A stretch of DNA of 64,000 nt from Acholeplasma hippikon (lineage in GTDB: Bacteria; Bacillota_I; Bacilli_A; Acholeplasmatales; Acholeplasmataceae), in the NCBI RefSeq assembly GCF_900660755.1, contig NZ_LR215050.1:868001-932000 (forward strand). Reading direction: 5' to 3'. Shown here piece by piece: positions 5,820-35,689 of the stretch (position 1 is the stretch's first letter; every line of letters begins with the position of its first letter). Made by a program: the position numbers and the translations under genes. The notes below the pieces were generated by a model that was not told the origin of the DNA, made no database searches, and saw nothing but the letters and a program-made list of their open reading frames with translations.

Positions 5820-6020
5820 CCGTAAAAAAAGTCCCTAGAGTATTCTCACTCTAAGGACGAATTTAATATCCGCGGTACCACCTTAGTTCCATAACAAAAG
5901 TTATGACACTTTAACATCTTTTAACGTAGATGAAACGGGAAAGTTTTTAATTTTCCACTCCATGGTCGAATTCAAAAGTCAATTTCATCAGTGGCTTTCA
6001 CCATTTCCACTTATCGCTAT
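5820..6020 (-). promoter_or_regulatory. T-box riboswitch leader controlling pheST
   Basis: The conserved T-box sequence AAGGTGGTACCGCGG lies at 5870-5884 on the minus strand, directly ahead of an intrinsic terminator (5824-5858). T-box leaders bind uncharged tRNA through a specifier codon and the NCCA end, which opens the antiterminator. A TTC (Phe) triplet at 5968-5970 in a GAATTCGA context is a plausible specifier, but I cannot fold Stem I with certainty. The leader is short compared with Bacillus examples. The upstream limit is approximate. Confidence 0.9.
5824..5858 (-). terminator. T-box-controlled terminator ahead of pheS
   Basis: On the minus strand an 11-bp stem (5848-5858 with 5831-5841, one mismatch/wobble) with a 6-base loop is followed by seven T's. 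It follows the T-box motif, so it is the regulated terminator of the riboswitch. Confidence 0.9.
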
Positions 6021-6071
6021 AATGTTTTAAACTTTTTACTACTACCATATCATCGATTTATTTATATTTTA

Positions 6072-28448: not shown

Positions 28449-30497
28449 TTAAAATTTCACTTTTCTTTTATTAAAAAGATAGTATATTGCAAAAATCGTT
28501 AACCCTGCACCTCCAGCAATGAAATAAATAACATAATTTGACTTTGTTTGATTATCAATTACATTGATTAAAATACGTTGTTCAGCATAGTTACCACTAG
28601 AATCATGAACATAATATAATCCTTCATAGGTTCCAACCGTATTCGTTGGAATATAATTTGGACTAAATGATAATTCATTAGTTAAATCGCCATCATAATT
28701 ATCGGTTGCTCTTGCATATTTTTTATAATCAAAAACTTCATTTTTCTTAACTTCAATATAACTAATTTCAATATTTGGACTAATCGTATCACCAATGGTA
28801 AGGTATAATCTTTCTTTTGATTGATTACCTGCAGTATCTTTTGCTGTGTAGTCCACATAATATCTACCTAATTTATTTTCTTTTATATTTGTTTCAATTG
28901 TCACATGGTATTTATTTAATTCAAAATCATAATTATCAGTTACAGATTCAATATAATCATAAAGGTCAAAATCTTCATCATAAGAAACAAAGACTTCTGT
29001 ATTCATTAAGACTAATTCCGGTGCAATGATATCTTTTACTTTAAGTATGGTTTCATATACTTGTTCGTTTTGACTTTGATCTGTTGCTTTAACAATGAGT
29101 GGATAACTTCCAACAGTTTCATAATCAATATATGACTCATCAAATTCAAAATCTAAATCTTTGTCATAGTTATCTGTAATTTTAAAGAAACTTTGTAAAT
29201 CAGGTCTTATAAAATCTGTCACAACGATTTCTTTTATTTGTAAAATTTTTGGTTTTGTTAAATCTTTGACTGAAAATACTAAAGGATACGTTACTTCATT
29301 TTTAGAAGTATCCTTTAATGTGACCATGATGCGATAATCTCCGACTTTTGAAGTGTCAACCTTTCCTTGTGTTGTAACCATTATATCCAAAGAATTATCA
29401 TAGTTATCTGTCACATATATATAATCTAAAATATATGGTTCTAGTTTATTTAATTCAATTTGTAACGGTCTTATAATTTCTAAGGTTGGTTTTTTAATAT
29501 CTTTTACATGAACCTTTAAAATTTCAGTTGTCACACTACGTTTTTTATTTGTTATTTCATAATAAACTTCATATGTACCTAATGTAGTTGAATCCACATA
29601 GGAAGTAATTTTAATATCATTTGTGTTTAAAGCTGATGCATTCTGAACATAACTCAATAGTTCTTTTTCATTTAATTCAGTTTGATAATTTATTGTTATT
29701 TCCTTATATTTTAGTTTTATTTCAAGTTTTGTATTATCAACGACTGTTACTTTTGATTGACGTTTAGAACTGTTATGAGATTGGTCAGTTGCAGTAATTG
29801 TAATTGGATAAACACCTTCAAAACTATAATCCACTAAACTATCATCATAAACTACATCAACCATTTGGTCATAGTTATCTGTGATTGTATAGTACTTTGA
29901 AAAATCTATAGATTCATCTATATTAACTTCTATGGTTTTATTTTCTTTAATTGTGGGGGCAATATTATCCACAACGATGACATTTTTTGTAATTGTTGTT
30001 TCATTATAAGACTCATCTGTTGCTTTATAAATAACTGGATAAGAGCCAATTTGATTCATATTCACTCTGGAGCTATCAATTGTTAATGCAACTTTTGATT
30101 GTGGACTATAGTTATCATAGTATGTTACATAACTTTTTAAATCTGGTAGTTTTGATCCAACTGGTAATTCAACATCATCCACCTCAATCATAGGTGGTTC
30201 ATTTTCCACTACTCTAAAAATAATTTCTTGATCACTTGTAAAATGATATGTTGGAAAATGTGCTCGATAAACCACACGGTAATCACCAACAATATTTGTA
30301 CGAATCACTCTAAATGTAGAATATTCTACCTCGTATTCCATATAAAAATCTGGGTCTTCAACAAATTGTTCACCCATTTGTAGTTTAGCTTCTGGAATAT
30401 ACTTAAAATCTTCGATTGGTTCATTCATTGGAACAACCACAACTGTGTTCAACCAAAGCACTGCTACATTCACTGTTTGTAATAAAAAAGACAGCAT
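28449..30497 (-). CDS. Membrane-anchored surface protein with tandem Ig-like repeats
   Basis: A 682-residue protein of unknown role. It has a hydrophobic N-terminal segment (MLSFLLQTVNVAVLWLNTVVVV), about seven beta-rich repeats of 75-90 residues, and a C-terminal membrane helix with a basic tail (YVIYFIAGGAGLTIFAIYYL then NKRKVKF). Each repeat carries a T-D-N-Y-D type motif (for example ITDNYD, VTDNYD, ATDNYDGD) and a G-x-Y-x-V segment, as in DUF5011/HYR-like bacterial Ig domains. It is presumably displayed outside the cell. The frame extends upstream into the ABC gene, but the ATG at 30497 has a strong GAGGTGATT ribosome site. That site is enclosed by a hairpin. Confidence 0.75.
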   Translation of the reverse strand: MLSFLLQTVNVAVLWLNTVVVVPMNEPIEDFKYIPEAKLQMGEQFVEDPDFYMEYEVEYSTFRVIRTNIVGDYRVVYRAHFPTYHFTSDQEIIFRVVENEPPMIEVDDVELPVGSKLPDLKSYVTYYDNYSPQSKVALTIDSSRVNMNQIGSYPVIYKATDESYNETTITKNVIVVDNIAPTIKENKTIEVNIDESIDFSKYYTITDNYDQMVDVVYDDSLVDYSFEGVYPITITATDQSHNSSKRQSKVTVVDNTKLEIKLKYKEITINYQTELNEKELLSYVQNASALNTNDIKITSYVDSTTLGTYEVYYEITNKKRSVTTEILKVHVKDIKKPTLEIIRPLQIELNKLEPYILDYIYVTDNYDNSLDIMVTTQGKVDTSKVGDYRIMVTLKDTSKNEVTYPLVFSVKDLTKPKILQIKEIVVTDFIRPDLQSFFKITDNYDKDLDFEFDESYIDYETVGSYPLIVKATDQSQNEQVYETILKVKDIIAPELVLMNTEVFVSYDEDFDLYDYIESVTDNYDFELNKYHVTIETNIKENKLGRYYVDYTAKDTAGNQSKERLYLTIGDTISPNIEISYIEVKKNEVFDYKKYARATDNYDGDLTNELSFSPNYIPTNTVGTYEGLYYVHDSSGNYAEQRILINVIDNQTKSNYVIYFIAGGAGLTIFAIYYLFNKRKVKF

Positions 30498-30538
30498 TTC
30501 AATCACCTCATATAATAGTAGTTGATTTGCTGTCTTTT
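30480..30538 (-). promoter_or_regulatory. Hairpin enclosing the ribosome site and start of the Ig-repeat gene
   Basis: Exact 11-base complementary arms (30528-30538 and 30486-30496) flank a 31-base loop holding the GAGGTG ribosome site. The T and G of the start codon fall in the 3' arm. The 3' arm runs into CTTTTTTATT, so the same structure could also end exporter transcripts. Whether it acts as terminator or translational gate cannot be decided from sequence. Confidence 0.6.
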
Positions 30539-30552
30539 GACTTTTTTTATTT

Positions 30553-32391
30553 TTATAATTTTTGCATTTCTTGAACGTATAAATTATCTTTTTCTGCCAA
30601 GAATTGATTTTTATATAGTTCAAAGTATGCACCGCGTTTTTCTAATAACTCATGGTGGGTTCCTTGTTCAAGAATCTTACCACCATCTAGTAAGACAATA
30701 AGGTCTGAATCAACAATAGTTGATAAACGGTGTGCAACAATTAATGATGTACGATTTTTTAATAGTGATTTAGTTGCTTGTTGAATTAAGTATTCTGCTT
30801 CACTGTCAATTGATGAAGTTGCTTCATCAAGAATTAAAATGCTCGGATTTGCCAAAATTGCTCTAGCAAATGAGATTAATTGTTTTTGACCAAGTGATAA
30901 TAAGTTACCACCTTCACCAACGTGTGTATCATATCCTTTATCTAATTTTTCAATAAAGGTATGTAATCCGATTGCTTTAGATGCAGCAATAACTTCTTCA
31001 TCTGTCGCATCTAAACGTCCATAACGAATATTTTCCATCACAGTTGTTGAGAAAAGTTGAGGAGATTGTAAGACATATCCTAAGCGTTCGTGTAACCATG
31101 AAATGCTTCGTTCCTTATAATCTCTTCCATCAATTAAGATTTGACCTTTTTTAGGTTCATAGAATCTAGAAGTTAAGTTAACAATTGTTGTCTTACCAGA
31201 TCCTGTATGGCCAACCAAGGCAACGCTCATACCGCGTTTAATCTTAAGGTTGAAGTTATCTAAAATAATTTCATTTTCATTATAGTAGAATGTTACATCT
31301 TTAAATTCAATATCACCATGAAGTGGTTCCCAGTTTTCTTTTTTCTTATTAAACCAGTCACCATATTTTTCTACTACTTCAGGTGAGTCAATGATTTCAG
31401 ACTCTGTTTCAATTAATTCAATAATTCTTTCAGCTGATGCTTGAGCAACTTGTAGTGATGAAATGAAACTTGTTAATACAGTCATTGGATCAAAGAATGA
31501 AATTGTTGAACGAATAAATAGATATAATGTACCAACAACAATCATTTGTTCTCTAACAAAGAATGTACCTGTAATCATAACAACCGATACAATCAAATAA
31601 CATGCCATTAATAAACATGAAGAATAGATTGATGAGATTGAAGTTGCTTTAATACTTGTACGCATCATCTTTTCTGCAGTTGCATCAAATTCCATTAAGT
31701 TTGATTGTTCGATACCTAATGTTTTAGATGTTCTAGCGCCATGGAAACTTTCATTATACTTAGCAGTTAATTCTGAGTTGAAGTGTCTTGCTTCTCTTTG
31801 TTTAATTAAAACTTTCTTTCTAAAGTAAGTTGTAATCATAAACATAAATGGTAACCCGATACTTACAACAATTGCTAAACGCCAGTTATACACATAAAGA
31901 ATAATTAGGGTAATAATCATTAAGAGAATTGACCATACAAAGTCAATAATCCCCCATGAAATGACTTGACTAAGACGTCTTGCATCACTTGTCATACGTG
32001 CCATGATCCAACCTTGCGGGGTTTTATCATAGTATGAAAACGGTAGACGTTGCAATGTCTTAAATGCTTGTTTACGTAAATCATAACTTACATTTGCTTC
32101 AATAATTCCACCTTGATAAATAAAACCATATACACATAATCCAAAGATTAATGCATAAAGAATATTAATAATTATAAAAGGTGTGAAATATTCAAAATTA
32201 TTATTCCCTACAAATTCATCTAAAACATATTTATTTAAAATTAAGTTAACTGAATCTAAAACTGCAAGTGAAACCGCAAAAGCTGTCATAATAATTAAAT
32301 TCTTTTTACTCTTGAAAATTACTTTAATTAATTTTCCCCAAACTGGAAGAGATATTTTCTTTAGCTTGATGTCTTCTTCATTATGCTGCAT
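30553..32391 (-). CDS. ABC exporter half-transporter, BmrD/YheH-like
   Basis: A 612-residue half-transporter: six membrane helices (about 30-320), then an ATPase with Walker A GHTGSGKTT, Walker B ILILDEATSSID and H-loop IVAHRLST. The signature is LSLGQ instead of LSGGQ. With the preceding gene it would form a heterodimer in which one ATP site is degenerate, as known for BmrCD-type multidrug exporters. GGAGG lies ahead of the ATG, and the gene overlaps its partner by 11 bases. The true substrate is unknown. Naming as BmrD is by arrangement and motifs. Confidence 0.88.
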   Translation of the reverse strand: MQHNEEDIKLKKISLPVWGKLIKVIFKSKKNLIIMTAFAVSLAVLDSVNLILNKYVLDEFVGNNNFEYFTPFIIINILYALIFGLCVYGFIYQGGIIEANVSYDLRKQAFKTLQRLPFSYYDKTPQGWIMARMTSDARRLSQVISWGIIDFVWSILLMIITLIILYVYNWRLAIVVSIGLPFMFMITTYFRKKVLIKQREARHFNSELTAKYNESFHGARTSKTLGIEQSNLMEFDATAEKMMRTSIKATSISSIYSSCLLMACYLIVSVVMITGTFFVREQMIVVGTLYLFIRSTISFFDPMTVLTSFISSLQVAQASAERIIELIETESEIIDSPEVVEKYGDWFNKKKENWEPLHGDIEFKDVTFYYNENEIILDNFNLKIKRGMSVALVGHTGSGKTTIVNLTSRFYEPKKGQILIDGRDYKERSISWLHERLGYVLQSPQLFSTTVMENIRYGRLDATDEEVIAASKAIGLHTFIEKLDKGYDTHVGEGGNLLSLGQKQLISFARAILANPSILILDEATSSIDSEAEYLIQQATKSLLKNRTSLIVAHRLSTIVDSDLIVLLDGGKILEQGTHHELLEKRGAYFELYKNQFLAEKDNLYVQEMQKL

Positions 32392-34213
32392 GAGAAATAT
32401 CCTCCTTCATAAGTTCTTTAAACTCATTTTCTAACTTACCTTGAATACCCCAGAGTGATTTATATAAACCATCTTGGTTAGCTAATTCGTCATGTTTACC
32501 AATTGCTTCAACTGTTTGGTTGTTTAACACAATGATTTTATCTGCTTCTTTAGCTGTTGTAATTCTATGCGTAATAATAATATTTGTTGATTTGTATTCT
32601 TTTTGCGCTAAAGCTCTTCTAATTAAGAGGTCAGTTTTATTATCAACAGCTGATAGCGCATCATCAAAGATTAAGATTGGTTTATTTGAAACTAACACAC
32701 GAGCAATCGCAACTCTTTGTTTTTGACCCCCAGATAATGTTGTTCCTTTTTCTCCAACTTTTGTTTCATAACCTTGTTGGAATGTATGAATATCTTTTGC
32801 TAAAGATGCAATCTCTGCTGCTTCTTTAACATCTTCTAATGTTGCATTTTTATTGGTAATTGCAATATTTTCAAATACTGTTTTTGAATATAAGAACGGA
32901 TCTTGTAGAACTGCCCCGATACTTGTTCTGATGTGCTTCTTTTTAATATCTCTTAATTCCACACCATCAATCGTGATAGATCCTTCATAATCATACATTC
33001 TTAACAGTAAGTTGATAATTGTTGATTTTCCTGAACCTGTTTTACCAATGAAGGCAACAGTTTCGCCTTTTTTAATATCAAATGATACATCTTTTAATAA
33101 ATAGTTAGTGTCATCTTCAAACTTAAAGCTCACATTTCTAAATGAAACATTACCTTCAATTAATGGCTCTAATACGCCATCATTTACATATTCAGTTGGT
33201 TGAGTCATAATATCTTGAATTCTACCAATAGCAACAAATGCTTTTGTGAATTCATTTATCATTCTACCTAACCCACGAATTGGCCAAATCAATATTCCAA
33301 GTAACATAAATGCTGCTGAAACTTTTGCTGCATCCATAATACCATTTCTAGCATAAATGATACATAGAATGGTTACTGCTGCAACTTGTGAAACGGTAAT
33401 AAAATCCATTAATCCCCAATAAATTGCAACAATCTTATTTGCCTTTATATTCATGTCTCTATATTGAGCATTTTTTGCTTCCATTTTTTCAATTTCAAAT
33501 GATTCATTTGCAAATGCTTTAACAACTTTTGTGCCTGATACATTTTCTTGAATAACTGTCATCATAGATGATTCATCTTTTTCTACTTTATCAAAAATCT
33601 TTTCGATCTTTAAGAAGTAAATTAGTGAACTAATTGCATAAACTGGTAACATTGCAATACAAATCCACATGATTGTTGTATTAATAAAGTACATTTGGAA
33701 TGCACCAGATATTAAACTTGCTGCTAATCCAATTAATTGCATCAGTTGTAAAACAACAAATCCTGTAGTTGTTTCAACGTCAGATGTTACACGTTGGATT
33801 AAATCCCCAGTGTCTACATTGTTATGATATTTATAATTTAAATTTTGAATATGTTCATATAAATCGACTCTTAATTTTTTAGAAATCTTCTCTTGAATCG
33901 CACCTTTCATGTAACTTTCCACATACATCAGTGCATATCTAATGAATTGATATATCACTAAAGCTAATCCAATATAAATTGCTACCTGTAAAATTCCATT
34001 TGCTGATTCAAAGAAATCAATTAAGAATTTAGGGAAGTTAACATCACTGATTACTTCACTATTATTAAGGTACTTATTTAAAGCCCCTACTAGGTACTGC
34101 GTAAATAATGGAATGTAAGAATATGAAAAACGATGGAAGATAACCAAAACAATCAATACTATATATTCAATTAGATGTCCTTTTGCTAATCTAAGTAATG
34201 CTTTTAACTTCAT
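32381..34213 (-). CDS. ABC exporter half-transporter, BmrC/YheI-like
   Basis: A 610-residue half-transporter with N-terminal membrane domain and C-terminal ATPase: Walker A GKTGSGKST, canonical signature LSGGQKQRVA, Walker B ILIFDDALSAVD. The catalytic Glu is replaced by Asp, so this Walker B site and the partner's LSLGQ signature together make the degenerate site of the heterodimer. The frame opens 18 codons earlier, but the ATG at 34213 with GGAGGAG upstream gives MKLKALLRLAKGH and lies after the attenuator terminator. Expression appears controlled by the leader at 34241-34392. Confidence 0.9.
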   Translation of the reverse strand: MKLKALLRLAKGHLIEYIVLIVLVIFHRFSYSYIPLFTQYLVGALNKYLNNSEVISDVNFPKFLIDFFESANGILQVAIYIGLALVIYQFIRYALMYVESYMKGAIQEKISKKLRVDLYEHIQNLNYKYHNNVDTGDLIQRVTSDVETTTGFVVLQLMQLIGLAASLISGAFQMYFINTTIMWICIAMLPVYAISSLIYFLKIEKIFDKVEKDESSMMTVIQENVSGTKVVKAFANESFEIEKMEAKNAQYRDMNIKANKIVAIYWGLMDFITVSQVAAVTILCIIYARNGIMDAAKVSAAFMLLGILIWPIRGLGRMINEFTKAFVAIGRIQDIMTQPTEYVNDGVLEPLIEGNVSFRNVSFKFEDDTNYLLKDVSFDIKKGETVAFIGKTGSGKSTIINLLLRMYDYEGSITIDGVELRDIKKKHIRTSIGAVLQDPFLYSKTVFENIAITNKNATLEDVKEAAEIASLAKDIHTFQQGYETKVGEKGTTLSGGQKQRVAIARVLVSNKPILIFDDALSAVDNKTDLLIRRALAQKEYKSTNIIITHRITTAKEADKIIVLNNQTVEAIGKHDELANQDGLYKSLWGIQGKLENEFKELMKEDISHAA

Positions 34214-34240: not shown

Positions 34241-34265
34241 ACAAAAAGAGGGGTGATTACCCCTC
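34241..34265 (-). terminator. Attenuator terminator ahead of the ABC exporter genes
   Basis: On the minus strand GAGGGGT (34259-34265) and ACCCCTC (34248-34254) form a 7-bp GC-rich stem with four-base loop, followed by TTTTTGTTT. It lies between the leader peptide gene and the exporter start, so transcription must read through it for expression. Confidence 0.85.
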
Positions 34266-34297
34266 ACAAAATAAAAACGCCATAAAAACGTGTATAA

Positions 34298-34370
34298 AAT
34301 GAAAGAAGTAATTCTAAAAAATACTTTCTTTCATTAATGGAACTTTGTTAGTAATTTCCACCAATGAAAG
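34298..34370 (-). promoter_or_regulatory. Alternative hairpins of the exporter attenuator
   Basis: Segment 1 (34356-34370, inside the leader peptide gene) pairs with segment 2 (34328-34342) over 15 bp with two G-U pairs. Segment 2 (34322-34335) can instead pair with segment 3 (34298-34311) over 13 bp with one bulge. The two hairpins share bases and cannot coexist. A ribosome held on the last leader codons would cover segment 1 and favour 2:3. How 2:3 acts on the terminator at 34241 is not clear from pairing alone. Confidence 0.65.
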
Positions 34371-34392
34371 GTTTAACTCTGATAATTAACAT
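34348..34392 (-). CDS. 14-residue leader peptide of the ABC exporter operon
   Basis: ATG at 34392 with a strong GGGAGG ribosome site nine bases upstream encodes MLIIRVKPFIGGNY and a TAA stop. The last seven codons lie inside the first arm of a strong hairpin. In Bacillus subtilis the bmrCD exporter genes are controlled by translation of the upstream bmrB peptide gene; the layout here (promoter, peptide, hairpins, terminator, exporter pair) is the same, although the peptide is shorter. No codon is over-represented, so induction by ribosome-targeting drugs rather than an amino acid is likely (inference). Confidence 0.75.
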   Translation of the reverse strand: MLIIRVKPFIGGNY

Positions 34393-34453
34393 AAGTTTTT
34401 ACCTCCCATTCATAAATTTTTTGTATTATCAAATATTTAGTTCTACCTAAATA

Positions 34454-34481
34454 ATTTTATCATACTAAAATATATAGTCAA
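34454..34481 (-). promoter_or_regulatory. Promoter of the ABC exporter leader
   Basis: The minus strand reads TTGACT (34476-34481), 16 bases, TAAAAT (34454-34459). The -35 box overlaps the stop codon of the regulator gene upstream. The predicted leader RNA is about 230 bases. Confidence 0.65.
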
Positions 34482-35689
34482 TCAATATATATTCTTAAAT
34501 TCTTATATTTCTTAAAAATCAAATCACTTAAAGAAGATGCTTCCTTATAGTAATTATTTTTTCTTAAATTTTCCATTCCCTCTTCATACCAAAAATTTAA
34601 TAAATCTTGTGTATCAGGAAAATCATTTTGTTTTAATATTTGTTCTCTAATAAAACTTAATTGCTCTTCTTTTTGGTTAAGAAATTTATATTTTAAATAT
34701 TTGATTGCTAATTCTTCATTCTTATTTAATTTCTCATATGGATGATTAATTAACTCAAAGATATTTTCTTTATATTTAAGCTTATTCATTATTTGAAGTG
34801 ATAATAAATAAAAAGCTTGATTCAATCTTTCTTTACCAATTATTAATTTATAACTGTCTTCATAACGTTGATTTAAGTAATTAATTTTTGCTTTTAAATA
34901 AGTTTTTTCATAATGTTTTAAGTAACTAGCTTCTGCTAACTCTTCTAAAAATTCATCAAGCCTCATAAATTGCATCAAATAGTTTAAATGTAAAAATTTC
35001 ATCTCATTAACATCTTCATATAAACCTAAATTAACCAAGCGATTAATCACAACATCATAATGTAAAAGAATATAACCATGATCATTTGTAAAAAAACTTA
35101 ATATTAGCTTTTCCTTATCAATTAATAAATTTAACTCTTTATGACTTACTTTTTCATTCATTAAAGTTAAAACATTGAAGGCATCCTTTAATCGACCTTC
35201 TTCCTTTAATAGAATAGATGTTCCATATAAATAAAGAGCTAATTCATCTTGGTCATAATTTTTAATATAGTGTGTTACTTCTTCAAATAATTGATTTGCT
35301 TCAGATAACTGATTTAAAAGGATATATCCTAAATAATTATTGAGAATTGATTGATAGTCTAGATGATTATTAAATTCGAAAAACTTCACTTTATCTTTTT
35401 CTAAGAATAAATGAATGACTTCATTAAAGTTAATATTATTTTTTTGACTTGAAAAATCAATTTTATATTTTTCTTTAAATAAATCTAAATATCTACTATT
35501 CGGTATAATCATATTATTTTCCACTTTTGATAAATAACTTACACTACAAATCCCTTCAGCACCCTCTTCTAAGGTCAAATGATGTTGTTTTCTTAAGTTT
35601 TTTAATATAGAACCTATTTCATTTCTATATAATGGTTCATGTTTTCTCATATTGATTTGATGTTTGATGCTTTTTAAATAAATATACAT
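34478..35689 (-). CDS. XRE-family regulator with helical, TPR-like C-terminal domain
   Basis: A 403-residue protein. A helix-turn-helix of the XRE type spans about residues 23-75 (IGSILKNLRKQHHLTLEEGAEGICSVSYLSKVENN). The remaining 330 residues are all-helical with many Leu/Tyr/Asn and look like degenerate TPR repeats, the layout of Rgg/PlcR-type (RRNPP) regulators that bind short peptides. The ATG at 35689 has AAGGAG seven bases upstream, and TATAAT lies at 35714-35719. It is upstream of the exporter genes, but control of them is not shown. The ligand is unknown. Confidence 0.75.
   Translation of the reverse strand: MYIYLKSIKHQINMRKHEPLYRNEIGSILKNLRKQHHLTLEEGAEGICSVSYLSKVENNMIIPNSRYLDLFKEKYKIDFSSQKNNINFNEVIHLFLEKDKVKFFEFNNHLDYQSILNNYLGYILLNQLSEANQLFEEVTHYIKNYDQDELALYLYGTSILLKEEGRLKDAFNVLTLMNEKVSHKELNLLIDKEKLILSFFTNDHGYILLHYDVVINRLVNLGLYEDVNEMKFLHLNYLMQFMRLDEFLEELAEASYLKHYEKTYLKAKINYLNQRYEDSYKLIIGKERLNQAFYLLSLQIMNKLKYKENIFELINHPYEKLNKNEELAIKYLKYKFLNQKEEQLSFIREQILKQNDFPDTQDLLNFWYEEGMENLRKNNYYKEASSLSDLIFKKYKNLRIYID

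Follow-up and report, generated by a model that had tools for sequence, protein, structure and literature searches.

A conserved leader-ORF transcription attenuator predicted upstream of a heterodimeric ABC exporter operon in Acholeplasma

A 14-codon open reading frame (ORF), two hairpins and an intrinsic terminator precede a pair of ABC exporter genes in the 64,000-nt stretch of DNA analysed here (the window), which comes from an Acholeplasma genome of 1.47 Mb. Do these elements make up a switch, and if so, what would it read? The original prediction saw a bmrB-like leader-peptide attenuator, possibly sensing drugs through ribosome stalling. We favor a different reading, to which we assign a probability of about 0.6: an Acholeplasma-specific, ribosome-controlled transcription attenuator that would gate the exporter operon through four helices competing in the manner proposed below. 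That the leader is a conserved attenuator is very probable.

The cassette and the exporter operon

The whole cassette lies on the minus strand, and every element named in the original prediction was found in its place (Table 1): the promoter, the ribosome site and ORF, the 15-bp hairpin starting inside the ORF, and the terminator followed by the exporter pair. The promoter is predicted to be of the sigma-70 type by consensus match only; its -35 box shares bases with the stop codon of the gene before it, and relatives carry promoter-like sequence at the same place. The second hairpin does compete for the 3' arm of the first, as had been proposed, but it has 10 contiguous base pairs (34335-34326 with 34307-34298), and the 13 bp originally described require a bulge. 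The leader has a folding z-score of -3.8 against chance, and two terminator-like sites were observed where 0.2 were expected. Rfam covariance models at gathering score matched no known riboswitch or T-box in the leader; the sole Rfam match in the window is a T-box at 5850-6062 on the minus strand (112.5 bits).

Table 1. Features of the leader cassette, the exporter operon and its neighbors (window positions)
Feature	Position	Strand	Remarks
Upstream gene	34478-35689	-	403 aa, N-terminal HTH_3
Promoter, predicted sigma-70 type	34454-34481	-	TTGACT-16-TAAAAT
Leader Shine-Dalgarno	34402-34407	-	GGGAGG
Leader ORF	34348-34392	-	MLIIRVKPFIGGNY; 14 codons; stop codon 34350-34348
Segment A	34356-34370	-	CTTTCATTGGTGGAA; within the ORF
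Segment B	34328-34342	-	TTCCATTAATGAAAG; 15 bp with A; 34335-34326 pairs with C
Segment C	34298-34312	-	34307-34298 pairs with B; 34312-34303 pairs with T1 and terminator loop (antiterminator)
U tract	34284-34288	-	TTTTT; C-T1 spacer
Terminator T1:T2	34248-34265	-	GAGGGGTAATCACCCCTC-TTTTTG (GAGGGGT-AATC-ACCCCTC); T-rich tail 34247-34238
Exporter subunit 1	32381-34213	-	610 aa; Walker B ILIFDD
Exporter subunit 2	30553-32391	-	612 aa; Walker B ILILDE; overlaps subunit 1
Downstream gene	28449-30632	-	727 aa, Ig-like repeats

Both exporter subunits combine an ABC membrane domain with an ABC ATPase domain. Subunit 1 has Asp at the position of the catalytic Glu, which makes it the non-catalytic, BmrC/YheI-like half, and subunit 2, with its canonical Walker B motif, is the BmrD/YheH-like half. 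A degenerate first subunit joined to a canonical second one is the pattern of heterodimeric exporters, and the solved chains of BmrC/BmrD (YheI/YheH) and of TM_0288 are among the relatives of the two half-transporters.

The flanking genes deserve a comment. The HTH protein is encoded directly upstream of the cassette, and in many other genera relatives of its C-terminal part are found upstream of the exporter, which makes the pairing of regulator and exporter an old one. Directly downstream, a GTG-started ORF that overlaps the 3' end of the exporter genes encodes a protein in which bacterial Ig-like domains (PF16403) recur and a transmembrane stretch lies at the C terminus.

Four competing helices in seven Acholeplasma genomes

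An orthologue of subunit 1 occurs in 8/8 Acholeplasma genomes, with 67-70% protein identity. Seven of these genomes, that of the window included, carry the leader (E 1e-9 to 1e-11), each as a single copy and always before this exporter, and the whole layout is kept in the six other species. In one metagenome-assembled genome (L005; G007, UBA4853), the leader is intact and subunit 1 contains one in-frame TAA, which is either a pseudogene or an assembly error.

Four helices can be drawn in each of the seven leaders: A:B, with A in the ORF, then B:C, C:T1 and T1:T2. The C:T1 helix was absent from the original description. In the window it has 10 bp, between 34312-34303 (ATTACTTCTT) and 34265-34256 (GAGGGGTAAT), the latter comprising the 5' arm and the loop of the terminator. 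By this second pairing, C joins the hairpins to the terminator, so that the leader becomes a four-helix cascade. C:T1 measures 9 bp in A. oculi (GTTACCCTT:GAGGGTAAC) and in another species, L009 (TATGCCCTT:GAGGGCATA), and 6-7 bp in the remaining leaders; in 7/7, this antiterminator and the terminator T1:T2 are mutually exclusive.

Paired segments change together between species. In three of them C:T1 extends into the terminator loop with differing but matching bases, the 5' flank of C and the loop reading ATTAC/GTAAT in the window, GTTACCC/GGGTAAC in A. oculi and TATGCCC/GGGCATA in L009. The total pairing observed for this extension was reached at P 0.0003-0.005 when flank and/or loop were shuffled with the C core and the terminator stem fixed. 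B and C likewise co-vary, as GAAAGAA/TTCTTTC in two species and GAAGG/CCTTC in the others. Because MAFFT alignments of the whole leader (A3, A4 and A6) place the terminator or C wrongly, helices were drawn species by species, and cognate was compared with non-cognate pairing by swapping partners. Cognate pairing was the stronger for A:B, B:C and C:T1, with 6/720, 16/720 and 39/720 permutations as good, respectively, although seven leaders from one genus, six of them distinct enough to count, do not make such tests free of relatedness. A direct A:T1 pairing visible in the window served as the control; it is not conserved (515/720) and was discarded.

These pairings suggest a switch in which the four helices would compete in the order of their synthesis. 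With segment A free, A:B would form and C would stay single-stranded; C would then pair with the 5' arm and loop of the terminator, which would come too late to keep RNA polymerase from entering the exporter genes. A ribosome covering A, either elongating past about codon 5 or standing at the stop codon, would release B. B:C would then form, T1 would be left free, T1:T2 would fold and transcription would end. Because A starts 24-27 nt past the AUG, ON would result from a ribosome at the start codon or on the first three codons or so, and equally from no ribosome at all. The leader ORF would have to be translated, and the natural signal would be inhibited initiation or early elongation, for instance by antibiotics that stall ribosomes at the start codon. 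Drug sensing by the leader is in this sense plausible.

In folding calculations that leave A free, A:B is the dominant helix, and C:T1 reaches a probability of 0.88-0.98 in 7/7 leaders as soon as T1 has been made; if A is masked, B:C already prevails by the time T1 appears. The ribosome was modelled as a mask reaching 15-16 nt ahead of the P-site codon, a choice compared with the toeprint at +16 in the vmlR study (PMC9226507). In six of the seven leaders, A:B is dominant with the P site at codons 1-3, codon 5 gives a mixed outcome, and B:C prevails at codon 7 or the stop. The exception is A. oculi, where B:C is favored at equilibrium even with A free; there, A:B would form first during transcription.

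Timing would be decisive. Once T1 is exposed, C:T1 beats B:C at equilibrium in 5/7 leaders, so the OFF state depends on kinetics, and since the full-length RNA always prefers the terminator, the switch would be a kinetic one. In a toy kinetic model that took its energies from the sequence and was run with 12 arbitrary sets of rates, masking A increased termination in 72/72 species-parameter combinations, a result that speaks for consistency rather than proof because the helix exclusivities are built into the model. We regard it as moderately probable that a translated leader turns the exporter OFF and an untranslated one turns it ON. The U tract between C and T1 is present in 7/7 leaders and is a possible RNA polymerase pause site. 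The Shine-Dalgarno sequence of the exporter itself is predicted to be paired in most readthrough leaders (L003, L004, L005, L009 and the window, at 34247-34214). Its partners differ from species to species and we therefore do not claim sequestration; a translational layer as in SL-4 of vmlR is possible on these predicted structures.

What the leader ORF would read

Signals for translation are strictly kept. In 7/7 leaders the Shine-Dalgarno core GGAGGT is invariant and the start and stop codons are retained; the ORFs have 14-18 codons in the relatives, and the stop codon always falls in the A-B loop, before B. The peptide behaves differently. The original prediction proposed looking for conservation of RVKPFIGGNY, and none was found beyond Phe-Ile, whose codons TTC ATT form the core of A and stand at codons 9-10 in six leaders and 10-11 in one. 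The residues between the start and Phe-Ile vary (LIIRVKP, QLIKGRKL, LKNTLIL, LTIKRKL, VIKKCTL, KSTKNHH), and the distance from AUG to TTC ATT is 24 nt in six leaders and 27 nt, still in frame, in one. A lack of synonymous variation in TTC ATT is expected if RNA pairing, not the peptide, is selected, and the predicted A:B pairing accounts for it. Given its in-frame spacing and variable residues, the most natural reading of the ORF is that of a fixed-length track for the ribosome. A sensing peptide deduced from peptide conservation was accordingly rejected, its sole shared element being accounted for by pairing.

A drug-specific leader peptide of the erm/RLR kind, at whose nascent-peptide motif a macrolide or similar drug would arrest the ribosome and turn the exporter ON, nevertheless has points in its favor. 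The +X+ sequence is a known class of macrolide arrest motif, and such motifs stand at codons 5-7 in three of the six distinct peptides (RVK in the window, KGR and KRK; window, L003 and L005); moreover, the bmrB and hflXr leaders act through drug stalling. By our own estimate, however, +X+ arises frequently by chance in short lysine-rich peptides, and its occurrences here may be of that kind. It is absent in three species, no conserved RLR/erm-type arrest motif was found across the leader peptides, and the only codons that they share are required for RNA pairing. Arrest at codon 6 would put the ribosome over A and, by the pairing logic, give OFF. We therefore consider such a peptide unlikely. 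A starvation attenuator of the trp/his type, sensing Phe or Ile codons, would make sense of the invariant Phe-Ile pair, and a Phe-type attenuator, uORFC-13-1, has been reported in Acholeplasma, where a computational prediction places a promoter, ribosome-binding site, upstream ORF (uORF) and terminator before aroF (PMC8632094). Unlike the exporter leader, uORFC-13-1 occurs upstream of aroF only, with phenylalanine as the proposed signal (PMC8632094). The exporter leader has no run of one amino acid, its Phe-Ile codons are explained by A:B pairing, and it precedes genes for a drug-type exporter and not for biosynthesis; a ribosome paused for lack of Phe would cover A and promote termination. 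We give starvation sensing hardly any credence.

Two further explanations dispense with the ribosome as the signal reader. The attenuator could be genuine and yet respond to a protein, a small molecule or a tRNA, with the ORF setting basal translation only; many kinds of transcription attenuator exist, and the trigger proposed here is putative. Against this stand the lack of any Rfam family match and, outside the paired segments, of a specifier loop or a conserved pocket for a ligand, while the strict Shine-Dalgarno sequence, in-frame spacing and stop position point to the ribosome. This alternative thus seems quite improbable to us. Alternatively, the terminator could be constitutive and merely set a basal level, with incidental hairpins, as long T/A-rich leaders fold readily. 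The conserved, mutually exclusive helices with their co-changes, the folding z-score and the absence of the leader from all other genera sharing the exporter make this very improbable. Control by the ribosome is the simplest explanation of a conserved leader-ORF transcription attenuator on this operon, and we consider it likely.

Relation to known attenuators and origin

Attenuators of the trp type have four ordered, competing segments and read out the position of the ribosome on a leader ORF, and absence of translation favors termination. The exporter leader has one helix more, and absence of translation is predicted to favor readthrough.

The layout resembles that of the bmrB leader of B. 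subtilis bmrCD, in which a short ORF and an intrinsic terminator precede a heterodimeric ABC exporter with the degenerate subunit first, and terminator, antiterminator and anti-antiterminator helices are likewise predicted (PMC4191407). The stronger claim of the original prediction, that the leader is bmrB-like with its terminator in the same position, could not be upheld. In bmrB the terminator is located within the ORF, which encodes 53 aa; ON requires a ribosome stalled on that ORF, and blocked translation results in low, non-inducible expression (PMC4191407), whereas the terminator of the window begins 82 nt past the stop codon of a much shorter ORF and an extra helix inverts the predicted logic. 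Induction by 50S inhibitors is a further trait of the bmrB type. No sequence or structural homology to the bmrB leader was found, and no relative of the leader appeared outside Acholeplasma in the covariance search described below.

A uORF within the 5' helix, mutually exclusive helices and an intrinsic terminator are shared with vmlR and with rli80-hflXr of Listeria (PMC9226507, PMC6310831). The Listeria lmo0919 leader, grouped with these two, shows the same likenesses, with a ribosome that switches it ON (PMC6310831). The vmlR uORF(MIN) attenuator responds to drugs that stop initiating ribosomes and has pause elements between its segments (PMC9226507). Both vmlR and rli80-hflXr need a stalled uORF ribosome for ON, and blocked uORF translation leaves their expression low and non-inducible (PMC9226507, PMC6310831). 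In these systems the ribosome opens the anti-antiterminator; in Acholeplasma, by contrast, the model demands that A:B stay closed for ON. The uORF lies here in A:B, which frees C for the antiterminator, and the anti-antiterminator is B:C, unlike the vmlR/hflXr type. For tlrB (yxjB), direct blockage of the terminator by the stalled ribosome is described (PMC6851288). The patAB genes of S. pneumoniae, also encoding a heterodimeric multidrug ABC exporter, are preceded by terminator, antiterminator and anti-antiterminator and induced by fluoroquinolones or DNA damage; the passages located in that study, unlike what we see in Acholeplasma, describe no leader ORF, and the terminator is close to the gene (PMC4319486). 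Taken together, the leader probably acts as ribosome-mediated attenuators do, here on a BmrCD-type exporter; it is neither a relative of bmrB nor an evident peptide sensor, and its sign is probably the opposite one.

A covariance model (R1) built on the A-B-C region of the seven leaders scores 67-78 bits in them, once per genome at the exporter gene, values that show uniqueness and not independent discovery since R1 was made from the same seven. In two genomes the leader stretch also yields a weak hit on the opposite strand, an echo of the first. Searching 88 family genomes (80 of them from other genera) and a class sample of 395 with R1 returned nothing convincing outside Acholeplasma. The weak matches inspected (L083, L084, L088, L096 and L097) lay within genes or lacked the cassette and were rejected. 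A direct DNA search with the leader across the family yielded two partial matches at the exporter, the remainder being low-complexity chance hits. In other genera the exporter promoter lies about 30 nt from the start codon with no leader. The attenuator thus looks, from these genomes, like a gain within Acholeplasma.

The one Acholeplasma genome in which the common leader is missing is that of A. equifetale (L007 / L053). About 175 nt upstream of its exporter, near the likely 5' end, there is a mini-ORF (ATGTGGGAGATGACTCCGAAATAA or internal ATGACTCCGAAATAA) with the potential to base-pair to the apical portion of ACATGCAAGGAAGTCATTCTTTGCATGT-TTTTTT, a strong terminator. The arrangement may represent a second mini-attenuator, an independent one, for this gene.

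In the open-access literature, we found no report of this leader, and our search revealed no leader-ORF attenuator of an exporter reported for Mollicutes, a group with few transcription regulators. The odds appear even to us that the leader is a translation-stress or antibiotic alarm with inverted logic: a five-segment leader, ON by default when untranslated, acquired a single time within Acholeplasma by a pre-existing, constitutive exporter operon. The 24-nt gap between AUG and A would act as a ruler, distinguishing ribosomes that stop while initiating or within the first codons (ON) from ribosomes that go on elongating (OFF), whatever the peptide. If true, this would constitute a peptide-independent way of sensing stalled initiation, in which loss of uORF translation would turn the operon ON, the reverse of what occurs in vmlR, hflXr and bmrB.
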